36,534 bases of DNA, from assembly GCA_945828295.1 (NCBI GenBank), contig CALZQV010000005.1, positions 1-36,534 of the forward strand. Reading direction: 5' to 3'. The stretch's first letter is position 1, and every line of letters begins with the position of its first letter. Position numbers and translations under genes: made by a program. The stretch comes from an uncultured Prevotellaceae bacterium (GTDB lineage Bacteria > Bacteroidota > Bacteroidia > Bacteroidales > Bacteroidaceae). A model generated the notes under the pieces. It was not told the origin of the DNA and searched no databases. It saw only the letters and a program-made list of their open reading frames with translations. This document shows positions 17,094 through 36,534 of this stretch, piece by piece.

Positions 17094-19928
17094 TCAGTGG
17101 GCCTGCAGCCAGTTGCTGCCCCAGCCACAGTCGGCCACGAGCGGGACGCTGAGCTGGCATGCCGACTCCATTTCCTCGATGACCATGGCCTGCAGGCGCT
17201 CCTTCTCCTCGGGCACGACGGTGAAGTTCAGTTCGTCGTGCACCTGCAGTATCATGCGGCTCTGGAAGCCTTCGTCCGTGAGGCGGCGGTAGACGCGAAC
17301 CATGGCAATCTTGATGATGTCGGCTGCCGTGCCCTGGATGGGGGCGTTGATGGCGTTGCGCTCGGCATAGCCGCGCACGACGGCGTTGTGGCTGTTGATG
17401 TCGGGGAGCACGAGACGGCGGTGGAACAGCGTCTCGGTGAAGCCGCGCTCGCGTGCCATCTGTATGCTGCGGTCCATGTATTCGCGCACCTTGGGATAGG
17501 TGAGGAAGTAGCCGTCGATGAGCTCCTTGGCCTCGGAGCGGCTGCATCCGATGCGCTCCGCCAGTCCGAAGGCGCTGATGCCATAGATGATGCCAAAGTT
17601 GGCCGTCTTGGCGCGCCGGCGTTCGTCGCTGCTGACGTCGCCTATCGGCTTGTGGAAGATTTTGGCGGCCGTGGCTGCGTGGATGTCGTGGCCCGAGCGG
17701 AATGCCTCTATGAGGTTGGGGTCTTGGCTCAGGTGGGCCATGATGCGAAGCTCTATCTGGCTGTAGTCGGCCGAGAAGAGCTCTTGGCCGGGCTCGGGGA
17801 TGAAGGCCCGGCGCACTTCCTTGCCCTCGGCGTCGCGCACGGGGATGTTCTGCAGGTTGGGGTTGCTGCTCGAGAGGCGCCCCGTGGCGGCCACGGTTTG
17901 GTTAAATGAGGTGTGGATGTGACCCGTCTGGGGGTTGATGAGCTGCGGCAGGTTGTCGATGTAGGTGCTCAGCAGCTTCTTCAGGCCGCGGTATTCCAGT
18001 ATCTTGCCCACCACGGGATGTTTTGAGCGCATCGACTCGAGCACCTCCTCCGAGGTCACGTACTGGCCTTTCTTTGTCTTCTTGGCCTTGTCGTTAATCT
18101 TGAGGTGCTCGAACAGGGCCTCGCCCACCTGTTTGGGCGACGAGATGTTGAGCTCGGGCAAGCCCGTCAGTTCGTGAATCTCCTGCTCGATGTTCAGCAT
18201 GCGCTGGGTGAAGAGGCGGCTGGTTTCGCGCAGTCCCTCGGTGTCGATGCGCACGCCGTTGCGCTCCATGTAGGCCAGCACGGGCATCAGGGGCATCTCG
18301 ATGTCGTAGAACAGGCTTTCGCAGCCCAGCTCGGCCAGGCGCGGCCGGAGCACGTTCCACAGGCGCAGCGTGACGTCGGCGTCCTCGCAGGCGTAGACAT
18401 AGATTTCCTGCGGGCTGAGTTCGGCCATGGAGCGCTGTTTCTTGCCTTTGGGGCCGATGAGTTCTTCGATGTGTATGGTTTGGTAGTTGAGCAGGGTTTC
18501 GGCCATGTAGTCCATGCCGTGGTGCAGCTCGGGGCTTATCAGGTAGTGGGCAATCATGGTGTCTATGAACTTGCCCTTTAGCGTGATGCCGTGATTCTGC
18601 AGCACCATCATGTCGTACTTCAGGTTTTGCCCGATTTTGGTGATGCCGGATTCATAGACGGGGCGGAACACCTCCACTACCCTGCTTGCCCCCTCGCGGC
18701 TTTGCGGAACGGGCACGTACCAGGCCTGGCCTTCGCGTATGGCAAAGCTGAGGCCCACCAGTCGGGCGCGCATGCTCTCGGTGCTGGTGGTTTCGGTGTC
18801 GAGGCAGATAGCCTCGGCCTGCAGCAATGTGTCGCACAGGGCGGCCATCTTATCAGGGCTGTCTATGAGCTGGTAGTCGGGATTGAGGTCTTTAAAGTCT
18901 TTAAGGTCCTTAAAGTCCTTAAAGTCCTTAAAGTCCTTAAGGTCGTTAGGGTCGTTAAAGTCATTAGGGTCATTGGGGTTGCCAAAGGCATCGTCGAAAA
19001 GGTTCAGCTGGGCATTCTTGGGGGCGGCCTTCTCTGCCTTCGGGGCCACGGCTGCGCCCTGCATCTTCTTGCTGAGCAGGGCACGGAATTCAAGTTCCTC
19101 GTAGAGGGATTTCAGGCTGTCGAGGTCGGGCTGCGTCACGCTCAGCGATGCCATGTCGAGCGTGATGGGCACGTCGGTCTTGATGGTGGCGAGCCACTTC
19201 GAGAAGATTATCTGCTCGCGGTTTTCCTCCACCTTCTGCCGCAGTGCACCCTTGATTTCGTCGGTATGCTCCAGAAGGTTCTCGACGGAGCCGAACTGCT
19301 GGATGAGCTTCTGGGCGGTCTTCTCCCCCACCCCTGGGCAGCCGGGAATGTTGTCGGCGGTGTCGCCCATCAGTCCCAGCATGTCGATGACCTGGAGGCA
19401 ATCGGTGAGCCCGTATTTTGCCTTCACCTCTTCGGGGCCGAGGAGTTCGGCGTCTTGCTTGCCCACGCTGGGGCGGTACATCCTCACCTTCGCCGTCACC
19501 AGCTGGGCGTAGTCCTTGTCGGGGGTCATCATGAAGGTGTCGATGCCCTGGCTGTCGGCCTGCCGGGCCAGTGTGCCGATGACGTCGTCGGCCTCGTATC
19601 CACTGACCTCCAGGATGGGGATGTGGTAGGCTTCCAGAATCTTTTTAATGTAGGGAACGGCCGTGCGAATGGCCTCGGGCGTCTCTTCGCGCTGGGCTTT
19701 GTATTGGGGGTACGCTTCGTGGCGGAAGGTGGGCCCCGAGGGGTCGAACGCCACGCCCAGGTGGGTTGGCCTTTCCTTTTCGAGCACCTCCTCCAATGTG
19801 TTCACGAAACCCATGATGGCTGATGTGTTCATGCCTTTCGAGTTGATTCTCGGGTTCTTGATAAAGGCGTAGTAGGCGCGGAATATCAGTGCATAAGCAT
19901 CGAGCAGAAACAGCTTTTCCATGGTCAT
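17094..19928 (-). CDS. polA: DNA polymerase I, with a tripeptide-repeat linker
   Basis: Repair and Okazaki-fragment polymerase, 944 residues. The N-terminal 5' nuclease spans about residues 1-300. The 3'-5' exonuclease keeps its metal ligands (LDTETT, NLKYDMMVL, YACEDADVT), so proofreading looks intact. The polymerase domain has motif A FSADYSQIELR, motif B RRAKTANFGIIYG and motif C QVHDELNF. Residues about 318-347, between the nuclease and exonuclease domains, are ten tandem xND/xKD tripeptides encoded by a 9-bp repeat. Two starts are possible: ATG 19928 (MTMEKLF) or ATG 19922 (MEKLF), the latter matching the usual family N-terminus. It is transcribed from the promoter at 20002-20033. Confidence 0.96.
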   Translation of the reverse strand: MTMEKLFLLDAYALIFRAYYAFIKNPRINSKGMNTSAIMGFVNTLEEVLEKERPTHLGVAFDPSGPTFRHEAYPQYKAQREETPEAIRTAVPYIKKILEAYHIPILEVSGYEADDVIGTLARQADSQGIDTFMMTPDKDYAQLVTAKVRMYRPSVGKQDAELLGPEEVKAKYGLTDCLQVIDMLGLMGDTADNIPGCPGVGEKTAQKLIQQFGSVENLLEHTDEIKGALRQKVEENREQIIFSKWLATIKTDVPITLDMASLSVTQPDLDSLKSLYEELEFRALLSKKMQGAAVAPKAEKAAPKNAQLNLFDDAFGNPNDPNDFNDPNDLKDFKDFKDFKDLKDFKDLNPDYQLIDSPDKMAALCDTLLQAEAICLDTETTSTESMRARLVGLSFAIREGQAWYVPVPQSREGASRVVEVFRPVYESGITKIGQNLKYDMMVLQNHGITLKGKFIDTMIAHYLISPELHHGMDYMAETLLNYQTIHIEELIGPKGKKQRSMAELSPQEIYVYACEDADVTLRLWNVLRPRLAELGCESLFYDIEMPLMPVLAYMERNGVRIDTEGLRETSRLFTQRMLNIEQEIHELTGLPELNISSPKQVGEALFEHLKINDKAKKTKKGQYVTSEEVLESMRSKHPVVGKILEYRGLKKLLSTYIDNLPQLINPQTGHIHTSFNQTVAATGRLSSSNPNLQNIPVRDAEGKEVRRAFIPEPGQELFSADYSQIELRIMAHLSQDPNLIEAFRSGHDIHAATAAKIFHKPIGDVSSDERRRAKTANFGIIYGISAFGLAERIGCSRSEAKELIDGYFLTYPKVREYMDRSIQMARERGFTETLFHRRLVLPDINSHNAVVRGYAERNAINAPIQGTAADIIKIAMVRVYRRLTDEGFQSRMILQVHDELNFTVVPEEKERLQAMVIEEMESACQLSVPLVADCGWGSNWLQAH
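18887..18976. repeat. 9-bp in-frame tandem repeat in polA
   Basis: Ten contiguous 9-bp units of the form RGTCNTTAR on the plus strand (six near-identical AGTCCTTAA/GGTCTTTAA-type units, then four more divergent GGTCGTTAG-type units). On the coding strand each gives a tripeptide Phe/Leu/Pro-Lys/Asn-Asp. Because the unit is a multiple of three, gain or loss of units keeps the frame. Confidence 0.9.
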
Positions 19929-30310: not shown

Positions 30311-30380
30311 ATTCTTAACTCTTAACTCTTAATTCTTACCTCCTACCTCTTACCTCTTACCTCTAATCTCTTACCTCCCC
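30311..30380. repeat. 7-bp tandem repeat filling the dtd/mazG gap
   Basis: Ten contiguous heptamers, with consensus CCTCTTA or ACTCTTA on the plus strand, occupy the whole gap between the dtd stop (30381) and the mazG-like start (30309). On the mRNA they read as repeated TAAGAGG/TAAGAGT, so they hold several GGAGG/AGAGG runs that resemble ribosome-binding sites. Confidence 0.85.
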
Positions 30381-32695: not shown

Positions 32696-33226
32696 TTAGA
32701 TTTTGATGAGCGTGGTTATTTCCGTGTCGTCGTCGAACACGCTGCGGCCGTTGAGGCCTTCGATGGTGAGCTCGATGAGGAAGTTAATGTAGATTTTGCG
32801 GGGGTGGAACTCCTGCACGAGGCCGTAGGCGGCCTTCATGCTGCCGCCCGTGGCCAACAGGTCGTCGTGGAGCAGCACCACGTCGTCGGGCGTGATGGCG
32901 TCGGTATGTATCTCGATGGTATCCTTGCCGTATTCCTTCATGTAGGTTGCCTTGCGCGTCTCGGCGGGCAGTTTGCCTGGTTTGCGGCACATGACGAAGC
33001 CGGCTCCCAGCCGGAGTGCCAGCGCGGCGCCTACGACGAAGCCTCGGCTCTCGATGCCCACAACCTTGGTGATGCCTTTGTCCTTGTAGAGGTCATAGAG
33101 TTCGTCGACGAGGATGCGCAGGCACTCGGGGTTTTTGAACAGTGTGCTCACGTCCTTAAACTGGATGCCCTTGATGGGGAAGTCGGGCACGTTGCGCAGG
33201 TTTTGCAGTAGGATGGGGTTATTCAT
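32696..33226 (-). CDS. apt: Adenine phosphoribosyltransferase
   Basis: Purine salvage enzyme joining adenine and PRPP to give AMP. The 176-residue length is normal. The PRPP-binding loop is VVLLHDDLLATGGS (about 121-134); KVVGIESRGFVVGAALA is the adenine/phosphate-binding segment, and the N-terminal RNVPDFPIKGIQFKDV is typical. It is in the mnmG-apt-uvrC run, 51 bp after mnmG and 11 bp before uvrC. The gap before it carries the parS-like site. Confidence 0.94.
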   Translation of the reverse strand: MNNPILLQNLRNVPDFPIKGIQFKDVSTLFKNPECLRILVDELYDLYKDKGITKVVGIESRGFVVGAALALRLGAGFVMCRKPGKLPAETRKATYMKEYGKDTIEIHTDAITPDDVVLLHDDLLATGGSMKAAYGLVQEFHPRKIYINFLIELTIEGLNGRSVFDDDTEITTLIKI

Positions 33227-33263: not shown

Positions 33264-33279
33264 TGTTTCACGTGGAACT
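33264..33279. promoter_or_regulatory. parS-like centromere site overlapping the mnmG stop
   Basis: TGTTTCACGTGGAACT matches TGTTTCACGTGGAACA (reverse complement of the well-known parS sequence TGTTCCACGTGAAACA) at 15 of 16 positions. It lies between mnmG and apt and overlaps the last two bases of the mnmG stop. ParB binds such sites near the replication origin, and mnmG (gidA) is a classic origin-proximal gene in many bacteria. No parA or parB is in the window. Confidence 0.7.
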
Positions 33280-35221
33280 ATCGCTTCATGAGCACGAGTA
33301 GCACGTTGACGTCGCTGGGCGAGACGCCCGGTATGCGGCTGGCCTGTGCCAGGGTTTCGGGGTCGATGTGCGTGAGCTTCTGCCGGGCCTCGGTGGAGAG
33401 GCTTTGTATCTGGTCGTACTGGAAGCGTCCGCGAATGTGGAGGTTCTCGAGGCGCTGCATCTTCTCGGCCATCTGCCGCTCGCGCTCGATGTAGCCCTTG
33501 TATTTAATCTGAATCTCGGCAGCCTCGGCGATTTCCTCGCGGCGGTTGGGAATGCGGTCGAGGGCTTCGGCCAGTCGGGGCAGCGAGGGCTTAAGGTTGT
33601 CGAGCGACAGGCCGGGACGGCTCAGCAGGTCGACGAGCTTGCATCCCTTGGCCAGCGGTGTCGTGCCCAGTGCCTCGAGTGTGGGGTTGATGAGGTTTGC
33701 CTTCACTGAAAAATTTTGACAGAAGGCTATCAGTCTGTCAATCTCTTCCTGCTTCGTGGCCCAGTGGCGGAAGCGCTCGCTGGTGGCCAGTCCCAGGTTG
33801 TGGGCTCGGGGCGTGAGTCGGGCATCGGCGTCGTCCTGGCGGAGCAGGATGCGGTATTCGGCCCGGCTGGTGAACATGCGGTAGGGCTCGTCAACGCCCT
33901 TCGTCACCAGGTCGTCGATGAGCACTCCGATGTAGCTCTCGTCGCGGTGCATGACGAACTGGCCTCCGCCGCCGCACTTGAGGGCAGCGTTCACGCCGGC
34001 CACCAGTCCCTGTCCGGCGGCTTCCTCGTAGCCGGTGGTGCCGTTGACCTGTCCGGCCAGGAAGAGACCGTCCACGCGTTTCGACTCCAGCGTGTGGTGG
34101 AGCAGGGTAGGGTCGAAGTAGTCATACTCGATGGCGTAGCCCGGGCGGTAGATTTTGATGTCGCGGAAGGCTGGGATGAGTCGCAGGGCCTCAAGCTGCA
34201 CGTCGATGGGCAGCGAGGAGGAGAATCCGTTGAGATAGTACTCCTGCGTGTCGAGCCCCTCGGGTTCGAGGAACAGCTGGTGCTGCTCCTTGTCGGCAAA
34301 GGTCACGAGTTTGGTCTCGATGCTGGGGCAGTAGCGCGGGCCGATGGATTGTATCTGGCCGTTATAGAGCGGCGAGTCGGGCAGGCCCTGTCGCAGCCGT
34401 TCGTGCACGGCGGGGTTGGTGAACGTAATCCAGCAGGGCAGGCCTTTCCTGTCGCGGCCTTCGGCGTCTCCCGGGCCGGCGGCCTTATCCGGCTTATCCG
34501 GATTTTCCGGAAATTCCGGAATTTCCGGAGTCCCGGGATAATACGAAAAGCGGTGAAAGTCGTTGTCGCCCGGCTGCAGGGTCATCTCGTCGAAGTGGAC
34601 GCTGCGGCCGTCGATGCGCACGGGTGTTCCCGTCTTCATGCGGCCGATGGTGATGCCGTGGCGGGCAATGCTCTCCGAGAGGTGGAGCGAGGGCGGTTCG
34701 GCACAGCGTCCGCCGGGCAGCTGCGTGCGCCCGATGTGCATGAGTCCGTTGAGGAACGTGCCTGCGGTGATGACGACGCATCGCGCCTGGAACGTCACGC
34801 CCAGGTAGGTCTCCACGCCCGCTACCCGTCCGTCTTCGACCAGCAGTTCCTTCACCTGGTCCTGCCAGATGCTCAGGTTGGGCTGGTTCTCCACGACGTG
34901 GCGCCAGGCCCAGATGAAGCGGCCGCGGTCGCACTGGGCGCGCGGGCTCCACATGGCGGGTCCCTTCGAGCGGTTGAGCATGCGGAACTGCAGGGTTGTC
35001 TGGTCGGTGACCTGGCCCATGTGGCCCCCCAGGGCGTCGATTTCGCGCACGATCTGGCCTTTGGCAATGCCGCCCACGGCGGGGTTGCACGACATCTGTG
35101 CAATCTTGTTCATGTCCATGGTGATGAGCAGCGTCCGGGCCCCCATCTGGGCTGCCGCACAGGCCGCCTCGCAGCCCGCGTGGCCGGCGCCCACCACCAC
35201 GATATCGTATTTCTCCTTCAT
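33278..35221 (-). CDS. mnmG: tRNA uridine-5-carboxymethylaminomethyl modification enzyme MnmG (GidA)
   Basis: With MnmE it modifies the wobble uridine (cmnm5U34) of several tRNAs, using FAD. Length is 647 residues from the ATG at 35221, chosen because it begins MKEKYDIVVVGAGHAGCEAA with the FAD motif (11-16); the frame runs 104 codons further upstream through repeat DNA and should be ignored. SCNPAVGGIAKG, the GPRYCPSIE motif with its Cys, and the helical C-terminus (PGVSPSDVNVLL) are present. Residues 229-246 are six tandem P-x-x tripeptides from a 9-bp repeat, inside a loop longer than in E. coli. A -7 box is at 35250-35257. Confidence 0.96.
   Translation of the reverse strand: MKEKYDIVVVGAGHAGCEAACAAAQMGARTLLITMDMNKIAQMSCNPAVGGIAKGQIVREIDALGGHMGQVTDQTTLQFRMLNRSKGPAMWSPRAQCDRGRFIWAWRHVVENQPNLSIWQDQVKELLVEDGRVAGVETYLGVTFQARCVVITAGTFLNGLMHIGRTQLPGGRCAEPPSLHLSESIARHGITIGRMKTGTPVRIDGRSVHFDEMTLQPGDNDFHRFSYYPGTPEIPEFPENPDKPDKAAGPGDAEGRDRKGLPCWITFTNPAVHERLRQGLPDSPLYNGQIQSIGPRYCPSIETKLVTFADKEQHQLFLEPEGLDTQEYYLNGFSSSLPIDVQLEALRLIPAFRDIKIYRPGYAIEYDYFDPTLLHHTLESKRVDGLFLAGQVNGTTGYEEAAGQGLVAGVNAALKCGGGGQFVMHRDESYIGVLIDDLVTKGVDEPYRMFTSRAEYRILLRQDDADARLTPRAHNLGLATSERFRHWATKQEEIDRLIAFCQNFSVKANLINPTLEALGTTPLAKGCKLVDLLSRPGLSLDNLKPSLPRLAEALDRIPNRREEIAEAAEIQIKYKGYIERERQMAEKMQRLENLHIRGRFQYDQIQSLSTEARQKLTHIDPETLAQASRIPGVSPSDVNVLLVLMKR
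34484..34537. repeat. 9-bp in-frame tandem repeat in mnmG
   Basis: Six 9-bp units ending in TCCGG or CCGGG (CTTATCCGG twice, ATTTTCCGG, AAATTCCGG, AATTTCCGG, AGTCCCGGG). On the coding strand they give PGT-PEI-PEF-PEN-PDK-PDK. Part of the array (34507-34528) is a perfect 22-bp palindrome. Confidence 0.9.
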
Positions 35222-35366: not shown

Positions 35367-35504
35367 TATATTCGTCGGGCGATGAATATATAATCGTCGG
35401 CGATGTTTGTACGTTCGTCATGCGATGTTTGTATAGCCGTCGTTCGATGAATATAGTTTGCCTTGCAGCGGCTGCAATTTGGCGCGGCGGCGGCTGCAAT
35501 TTGG
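35367..35504. repeat. Degenerate repeat array between mnmG and sdhC
   Basis: Four units of 21-24 bp with the core CGTC-n2/3-CGATG and AT-rich ends lie at 35367-35390, 35391-35411, 35412-35433 and 35434-35456. The first is a near-perfect palindrome (TATATTCGTC...GATGAATATA). After them GCGGCTGCAATTTGG occurs twice (35468-35482, 35490-35504), 22 bp apart. The rest of this intergenic stretch (35258-35366) shows nothing clear. No protein is credible here although frames are open on both strands. Confidence 0.65.
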
Positions 35505-35646: not shown

Positions 35647-36534
35647 ATGTGGTTAATCAAATCATCTATTGGTAGGAAAGTGGTGATGTCGGTAACCGGC
35701 ATTGCGCTTGTCCTGTTCTTGACCTTCCATGCGTCAATGAACATCGTAGCCCTCATCAGTGCTAAGGGTTACAACATGATTTGTGAGTTCCTGGGTGCCA
35801 ACTGGTATGCTGTTGCAGCAACCATCGGTCTGGCTGTCCTGGTGGCCTTGCATTTCATCTTTGCTTTCATCCTCACCCTGCAGAACCGCAGGGCACGCGG
35901 TAACAGCCGCTATGCCGTGACCGACAAGCCCGGCAAGGTGGAATGGGCCAGCCAGAACATGCTCGTGCTGGGTATCATCGTGGTACTGGGTATGCTGCTG
36001 CACCTCTACAATTTCTGGTACAACATGATGTTTGCCGAACTGGCTCACATTGAGGAACTGGAGGCCAACGCTGCCAACGGTGTCTATCACATCGTCAATA
36101 CCTTCTCGTGCCCTGTCTTCACCGCCATCTATATCGTGTGGCTGGCAGCCCTGCTCTTCCACCTGACCCACGGCATCTGGAGTGCCTTGCAGACCCTGGG
36201 CTTCAGCGGCAAGGTATGGTTCCAGCGCTGGAAGTGCATCGGCAATGCCTGGGCTGTCATCGTGGTGGCCATGTTCGCCGTGGTGGCCATAGCCTTCTGG
36301 TCCGGCTACCGTCCCTGTGACTATGAGGAGGCCATGAACACCGAGGCTGCTGCCTGCCCCATGATGAAGGGGGAGTGCAAGAAGGCTTGCGACAAGTCCT
36401 GTGCCGGTCCTTGCGAGAAGCCCTGCATGAAGGCGTGCGAGAAGGCGTGCGAGAAGCCCTGTCATGAGGCTGGCGAAGGTCCTTGCGAGAAGCCCTGCCA
36501 CAAGGCTTGTGCTGAGGAGGGTGAGGCTGTTGTT
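35647..36534 (+). CDS. sdhC: Succinate dehydrogenase/fumarate reductase cytochrome b subunit, with a Cys-rich tail (partial at the window edge)
   Basis: Single-subunit, five-helix diheme membrane anchor of the succinate:quinone oxidoreductase used by Bacteroidales for fumarate reduction. Residues 1-220 are the usual protein: helices with candidate heme-ligand His at H28, H69, H119 and H172/H175 (LLFHLTHGIWS), plus ASQNMLVLG. After the last helix (~205-219) comes an unusual tail. From C244 to C288 a Cys recurs every fourth residue (244, 248, 252, 256, 260, 264, 268, 272, then 280, 284, 288, with Gly at 276), in units such as EKPC and EKAC. C224 and C237 precede it. The frame is still open at residue 296, at the edge. 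sdhA and sdhB are expected next. Confidence 0.9.
   Translation, partial: MWLIKSSIGRKVVMSVTGIALVLFLTFHASMNIVALISAKGYNMICEFLGANWYAVAATIGLAVLVALHFIFAFILTLQNRRARGNSRYAVTDKPGKVEWASQNMLVLGIIVVLGMLLHLYNFWYNMMFAELAHIEELEANAANGVYHIVNTFSCPVFTAIYIVWLAALLFHLTHGIWSALQTLGFSGKVWFQRWKCIGNAWAVIVVAMFAVVAIAFWSGYRPCDYEEAMNTEAAACPMMKGECKKACDKSCAGPCEKPCMKACEKACEKPCHEAGEGPCEKPCHKACAEEGEAVV
36376..36510. repeat. 12-bp repeat encoding the SdhC Cys tail
   Basis: Degenerate tandem 12-bp units (GAGAAGCCCTGC / GAGAAGGCGTGC type) run in frame and encode the x-Lys-x-Cys tetrapeptides. Eleven of twelve registers keep the Cys codon. Confidence 0.8.

Follow-up and report, generated by a model that had tools for sequence, protein, structure and literature searches.

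A cysteine-rich, predicted periplasmic C-terminal tail of the SdhC cytochrome b subunit in Prevotellaceae and its possible role as a metal-ligand array

The membrane cytochrome b subunit of succinate dehydrogenase / quinol:fumarate reductase (SdhC/FrdC), encoded at the end of the analysed DNA, has been found to carry a long cysteine-packed tail behind its five-helix core. This tail is real, widespread among relatives, fast-evolving, under selection for its cysteines and predicted to be periplasmic, and its function, as we infer from these features, may lie in the binding of metals and in the protection of the enzyme.

Results

The window, i.e. the whole stretch of 36,534 nucleotides under study, contains sdhC/frdC at positions 35647..36534 of the forward strand. 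The reading frame gives 296 aa and remains unclosed at the window edge because the contig itself (C5) ends at 36534, inside the tail, so that the 3' end of the gene is cut. The protein scored 202.8 bits with the SdhC profile TIGR02046 (b558 family), whose cut-off is 96, and it is a true SdhC. The missing end of the tail was read from the relative P0001, which is 314 aa long, 98% identical to the window SdhC and the representative of a cluster with 191 member sequences, and from a near-identical contig (C3 of genome G007, locus L111). It runs EHNHLTKDIKEDCPACPKN and then stops, and the terminus of the tail is given by both as ...CEKPCHKACAEEGEAVVEHNHLTKDIKEDCPACPKN followed by the stop codon. 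In P0001 the tail comprises 97 aa with 15 cysteines. The operon with the flavoprotein and iron-sulfur subunits is present in relatives, the window contig ending before it: in L111 sdhA starts 28 nt past the sdhC stop, and the operon of L022 has sdhA (NF005749, 1129.5 bits) and sdhB (NF005746, 397.9 bits). In the assembly of the window itself, only query residues 513-660 of sdhA are matched, on contig C41.

The contig end falls inside the tail here and likewise in the relative G007, which might point to repeat DNA that was misassembled or read in the wrong frame. Such an artefact is, however, already refuted by the relatives and can be given a negligible chance, as complete in-frame tails are found in P0001 and its relatives from many separate assemblies and the L111 tail stops just ahead of sdhA. 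The preliminary description of this DNA had named absence of the tail from all relatives, a frameshift or an assembly error as grounds for discarding it; many relatives carry the tail in frame.

The core, residues 1-217 (35647..36297, forward strand), has five transmembrane helices and the heme ligands H28, H69, H119 and H172, as seen by hydropathy, alignment, AlphaFold and Foldseek. These four histidines are invariant in 336 of 336 sequences. P0001 displays five hydropathy segments, the core blocks of its AlphaFold model mostly reach 80-98, and its best solved fold match is the Chloroflexus SDH (9lay_C, E 3.2e-8), followed by far weaker matches (E ~0.1 and above) to the D. gigas and W. succinogenes QFR (5xmj_C, 2bs3_C). 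The profile, the hydropathy, the model and the fold match thus agree with the earlier statement of a normal five-helix cytochrome b. The loops of P0001 carry 3/6/3 Lys+Arg on one face of the membrane and 1/0 on the opposite face, which places the N-terminus inside and the C-terminus outside. In the model of the Prevotella bryantii enzyme, as given in the available text of PMC10739449, His28 and His119 hold the distal, periplasm-side heme whereas His69 and His172 hold the proximal one. The side of the tail could therefore be predicted, as had been anticipated, and loop charges together with heme-ligand positions argue strongly for the periplasm, beside the menaquinol/distal-heme face. The complete tail has 14 Lys+Arg next to 19 Asp+Glu (P0001), and 14 basic residues are unusual for the outside by the charge rule. 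In comparison to the FrdC of P. bryantii and Wolinella succinogenes (type B QFR), the same five helices, four heme histidines, sdhC/A/B order and Glu47 region are found, whereas a Cys-rich tail is not mentioned for them in the published text consulted and here 97 predicted periplasmic residues with 15 cysteines are added (P0001).

In the window the tail occupies residues 218-296 (36298..36534, forward strand), with cysteines at 224, 237, 244, 248, 252, 256, 260, 264, 268, 272, 280, 284 and 288. Twelve of these 13 share one modulo-4 register, a degree of order that was not reached once when the tail was shuffled 20,000 times. The C-x3-C array at 36376..36510 (forward strand), counted in the translation, contains 11 cysteines between residues 244 and 288 with Gly in the register at residue 276, and the exact four-residue spacing claimed at first sight holds on recount. 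The array is encoded in part by a 12-bp tandem repeat (TGCGAGAAGGCG, 3.8 copies by TRF, 36412..36456, forward strand), lying within an array of 36-bp period at 36406-36507. A single Cys-Pro pair (CPMM) occurs in the window tail and the completed end adds two (CPACPK). In the AlphaFold model of P0001, pLDDT is 46-62 over tail residues 231-300 and 76-81 over 301-314.

To describe the spread of the tail, defined as everything after residue 217, 336 unique complete SdhCs were drawn from 384 items by removing partial or open sequences (the window included), the fragments P0121 and P0122, and then duplicates. In this set, which leans to long tails since its 117 database proteins are the best matches to the window protein (the other 219 coming from loci), 78 tails have at least 40 aa, 71 have at least 40 aa together with at least 6 cysteines, and 43 have no cysteine; the extremes are 27 tail cysteines (P0064) and 124 aa (P0071). 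Within the genus, 57 of 61 searched genomes matched and 54 complete SdhCs were read from 53 genomes: 39 have at least 2 tail cysteines, 10 have at least 6, 9 have none and just 8 reach 40 aa, so the Cys-rich tail is dispensable. Prevotellaceae bacterium HUN156 (L064), whose record is not labelled as a MAG, carries a version with 8 Cys that measures 38-40 aa according to where the cut is set. Within the family, 287 of 301 searched genomes matched. The 89 complete SdhCs considered there, mostly top-scoring ones, include 72 with at least 2 tail cysteines, 9 long ones with at least 6 and 5 with none; short Cys-containing stubs, which the preliminary description had ascribed to Bacteroides SdhC, are usual in this family.

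At the level of the order, 130 of 149 searched genomes matched and 128 were read. When the window, the split hit L271 and the same-family genome G062 are set aside, at least 2 tail cysteines are present in 10 of 125 and 103 of 125 proteins end in 3-7 aa devoid of cysteine. Tails of at least 40 aa are those of L261 (11 Cys), L266 (7 Cys) and L264 (no Cys). Relatives of L266 vary in a similar manner, with at least 2 tail cysteines in 72 of its 120 best matches, 14 cysteines in P0134 and HHHH plus 10 cysteines in P0215. L264 (G375) and L261 (G488), from another Bacteroidales family, both have tails of ~110 aa, with 11 cysteines in L261 and none in L264, and cysteines may have been gained or lost within an existing tail. 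A standalone or shared form of the tail domain was not found: a search with a 96-aa tail returned two proteins only, both pieces of SdhC. The P0122 tail fragment, searched in 31 relatives, gave besides sdhC weak places only (best G002, E 2.8e-5, with an internal stop), and in the window's own genome the sole place besides sdhC had E 0.04 and two stops. Cys-dense segments outside SdhC look by eye like non-gene frames (window plus 606 kb, 80 loci). Matches found by tblastn through stop codons, considered as remnant tails, turned out to be sdhC running into sdhA in all 8 loci inspected from a set of 12.

The cysteines of the tail are better conserved than their surroundings. Over 80 independent tail pairs, selected as alignable and in which the regular spacing eases Cys-Cys alignment, cysteine is identical in 1048 of 1266 positions (0.83) against 0.66 for the other residues, and the cores of the same pairs show the reverse (0.75 for Cys against 0.86). 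For long tails (34 pairs) the values are 748/889 (0.84) and 0.63, cysteine being ahead in 32 pairs and the next commonest residues, Ala, Glu and Gly, lying at 0.66-0.71. Tyr, a rarer residue, equals Cys at 0.83 in the 80-pair set. In 25 pairs, again selected for alignable tails, pN/pS amounts to 0.30 for the tails and 0.16 for the cores, and Cys sites are kept in 125 of 150 cases, 34 of which differ synonymously in the codon. The value of 0.30 shows that the tails are translated and under purifying selection. The cysteines are thus conserved in spite of a varying number of units, and a pattern of this kind had been proposed in advance as support for a function.

The tails change rapidly in length. 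In-register blocks are gained or lost between near relatives (P0001-P0003, P0121, P0122), whose tails differ by 4- and 12-residue steps, and the suggested expansion and contraction through the repeat is thereby borne out. Of 23 long locus tails, 12 contain tandem repeats according to TRF (score at least 30), and their best periods of 12-24 bp are all multiples of 3. Cysteine is encoded by 10 of the 12 best units when read by eye, the units of L007 and L195 having none, and the Cys-bearing units are diverse (CEKA; ECCQEKK; CCKGACDE-type; CQAKHEG; CDKP). A tree of the cores built with FastTree requires at least 30 changes, by gain or loss, between the long and the short state and has 34 maximal all-long clades, 19 of which are single sequences, the window clade having a support of 98. 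Well-supported branches alone provide 12 independent pairs differing by at least 6 cysteines. A terminal motif, HxH...DCxAC, is common to 14 sequences with otherwise differing tails (P0001-P0006, P0010, P0012, P0015, P0016, P0064, P0068, P0076 and L008) and changes 6 times on the tree. Docking of this motif on the core was considered from the confidence of P0001 over residues 301-314, and no claim is made as the last 20 residues of P0016 reach just 53-67.

Other repeats are present in the window. The divergent neighbour mnmG (gidA; 33278..35185, reverse strand; TIGR00136, 766 bits), a relative of which is present in 46 of 80 fetched relative loci, is matched by its profile in two stretches and has a 9-bp repeat stretch at 34484-34529 (GTPEIPEFPENPDKPDK...). 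In polA, encoding DNA polymerase I (17094-19928, reverse strand; NF004397, 1119 bits), an in-frame 9-bp repeat stretch at 18882-18991 reads NDPNDFNDPNDLKDFKDFKDFKDLKDFKDLN. The adenine phosphoribosyltransferase gene apt lies at 32696..33226 on the reverse strand (NF002636, 194.1 bits). About nine 7-bp units (TCTTACC) are located at 30313-30377, mostly between the listed frames of at least 100 aa, and a 22-bp repeat of 2.3 copies at 35400-35449, between mnmG and sdhC, is possibly part of their divergent promoter region.

Discussion

Cysteine makes up 17.9% of tails of at least 70 aa (52 sequences) and 16.3% of those of 40-69 aa (26 sequences) in comparison to 1.8% of the core. In 55 non-redundant long tails the residues ILVFWYM amount to 9.3%, the Cys spacing peaks at 4 and 6, and the cysteine number is even in 28 and odd in 27, so that the even bias of a disulfide domain is absent. 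His occurs alongside Cys in some tails (P0039, P0041, P0093, P0215), and this combination would form a metal-ligand signature that disulfides would leave unexplained. Binding of soft metals (or heme) is probably to be preferred over disulfides because the even bias is lacking and His takes the place of Cys in some tails. The preliminary description had offered metals, iron-sulfur precursors and disulfides as candidates. A closed intramolecular set of disulfides is disfavoured by the 28 even and 27 odd counts, while intermolecular or partial disulfides are compatible with them. Iron-sulfur precursor binding appears unlikely, since the iron-sulfur subunit and cluster assembly are cytoplasmic and the tail is predicted to be periplasmic.

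SdhC anchors the menaquinol:fumarate reductase in the membrane and holds its heme b. In the reading that we prefer, with a probability of about 0.4, the C-terminus just outside the fifth helix would be a thiol-rich stub or disordered tail in the window's family and a few others, acting as a metallothionein-like array of ligands that is tethered to the membrane. This array may bind soft or transition metals (Cu+, Zn2+, Cd2+, Ag+/Hg2+) near the distal heme and the menaquinol site, serving as a buffer for them and as a shield for a heme-b enzyme that they could poison. Its capacity would be set as short repeats are gained and lost in frame, length and sequence drifting while the thiol density stays. 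A protective role is plausible since, according to the accessible part of PMC6247083, high Ag+ concentrations inhibit the Rubrivivax and E. coli SDH, and that paper also cites the loss of heme from b-type hemoproteins under the action of metals. Against a metal role stand the B. subtilis SDH, unaffected by Ag+ in the same source, and the lack of a match to any metallothionein family: none was listed in a Pfam scan, with E up to 1, of 10 SdhCs including the window protein. PF27846.1 is precomputed on P0004 and P0016, whereas the Pfam scan of those two does not report PF27846.

Metallothioneins of the bacterial SmtA/BmtA kind are the Cys-rich reference for comparison. The tails resemble them in 16-18% Cys, few hydrophobic residues, CxC/CxxC/Cx3C spacings and a mostly low-confidence model, and differ in being fused to a membrane cytochrome, predicted periplasmic and often built of repeats instead of forming a small standalone protein. 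Proteins with heme regulatory motifs are recognised by Cys-Pro. In long tails CP pairs are about twice as frequent as expected, 12 of 55 tails having none, and here they stand in dense, predicted periplasmic arrays with only putative heme binding. Helicobacter has the nickel proteins Hpn and Hpn-like. These (compare PMC4671568) are likewise small sequences rich in metal ligands, but they are His-rich and separate proteins, whereas a tail with mainly Cys on a respiratory enzyme is seen here.

The strongest rival to a metal-ligand array is mostly neutral drift, by which a tolerated Cys stub was lengthened by in-frame slippage and its cysteines are inherited or weakly constrained. The repeats with periods in multiples of 3, present in about half of the long locus tails (12/23), the two best units without Cys, the lack of tail cysteines in 9 of 54 genus SdhCs and the 30 or more long/short changes can all be accommodated by drift, and the in-frame 9-bp repeats of PolA and MnmG indicate that slippage is general in this DNA. 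The frequent coming and going of long tails also fits weak selection. Drift would, however, leave several facts aside: among the common residues of the tails none is as well conserved as Cys, which is not so in the cores, the pN/pS of 0.30 denotes purifying selection, tails made of differing units become rich in Cys (or Cys/His) in other families too, and the repeat stretches of PolA and MnmG in the same genome contain no Cys. Mostly neutral drift is considered improbable. Heme capture, in which Cys-Pro pairs resembling heme regulatory motifs would hold periplasm-imported heme for the two heme b sites of SdhC, is less probable still. Pro is enriched beside Cys more than any other neighbour (111 CP in 55 long tails where 54.5 would be expected), tails with CP arrays exist (8 CP among 12 Cys in P0029, 7 among 23 in P0071), and HemB has no match in the window's own genome (82.8% complete) and is found in 29 of 149 order genomes. 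Nevertheless, a fifth or so of the long tails (12/55) lack CP, the window tail has one and its completed end two more, repeats inflate dipeptide counts, and lack of HemB as a predictor of the tail was discarded as not discriminating: at least 2 tail cysteines occur in 10 of 99 HemB-less against 1 of 27 HemB-bearing order genomes (window and split hit L271 omitted).

Redox-active thiols, serving as a thiol/disulfide buffer, as an oxygen sensor at the menaquinol site or as intermolecular disulfides tethering partners like NQR, have similarly slender odds. A periplasmic position next to the quinol site would suit them, and P. bryantii has an NQR-QFR supercomplex (available text of PMC8516057). 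Cys46 adjoins Glu47, which PMC10739449 places at the menaquinol site in the model of P. bryantii FrdC, and is cysteine in 292 of 293 sequences with tail cysteines; it is, however, also kept in 30 of 43 sequences without them and is thus independent of the tail. The 28:27 ratio and the His-bearing variants speak against redox thiols as well. Coupling of the loop residue Cys155 to the tail cysteines, suggested by raw counts, was rejected, since it is not borne out by independent pairs from well-supported branches, too few of which differ for significance.

A wider proposal, that Complex II of gut Bacteroidales has repeatedly built a copy-number-tunable, metallothionein-like array on its periplasmic face for handling metals or heme, is held to be rather doubtful. 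A description of such a tail was not found in the full-text literature searched, a scope outside which most subscription papers as well as all bioRxiv preprints lie.

Conclusion

QFR/SDH is central to the energy metabolism of bacteria that abound in the rumen and the gut, and its subunits usually change little. To our knowledge, a metallothionein-like domain on a respiratory complex would, if true, be the first known. A tail that changes fast, conserves its cysteines and has been expanded repeatedly points to a selective pressure in the periplasm, exerted by metals, heme supply or redox state, and such a pressure was not found in the available text of the papers on the enzyme that were examined. 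The role of the tail can be tested, as the frdCAB of B. thetaiotaomicron is functional in E. coli according to the accessible text of PMC5210497 and HUN156 provides an 8-Cys version. The many lengths and sequences of the Cys-packed tails in relatives suggest that a core energy enzyme bears an attachment for handling metals or heme, of a kind not described so far.
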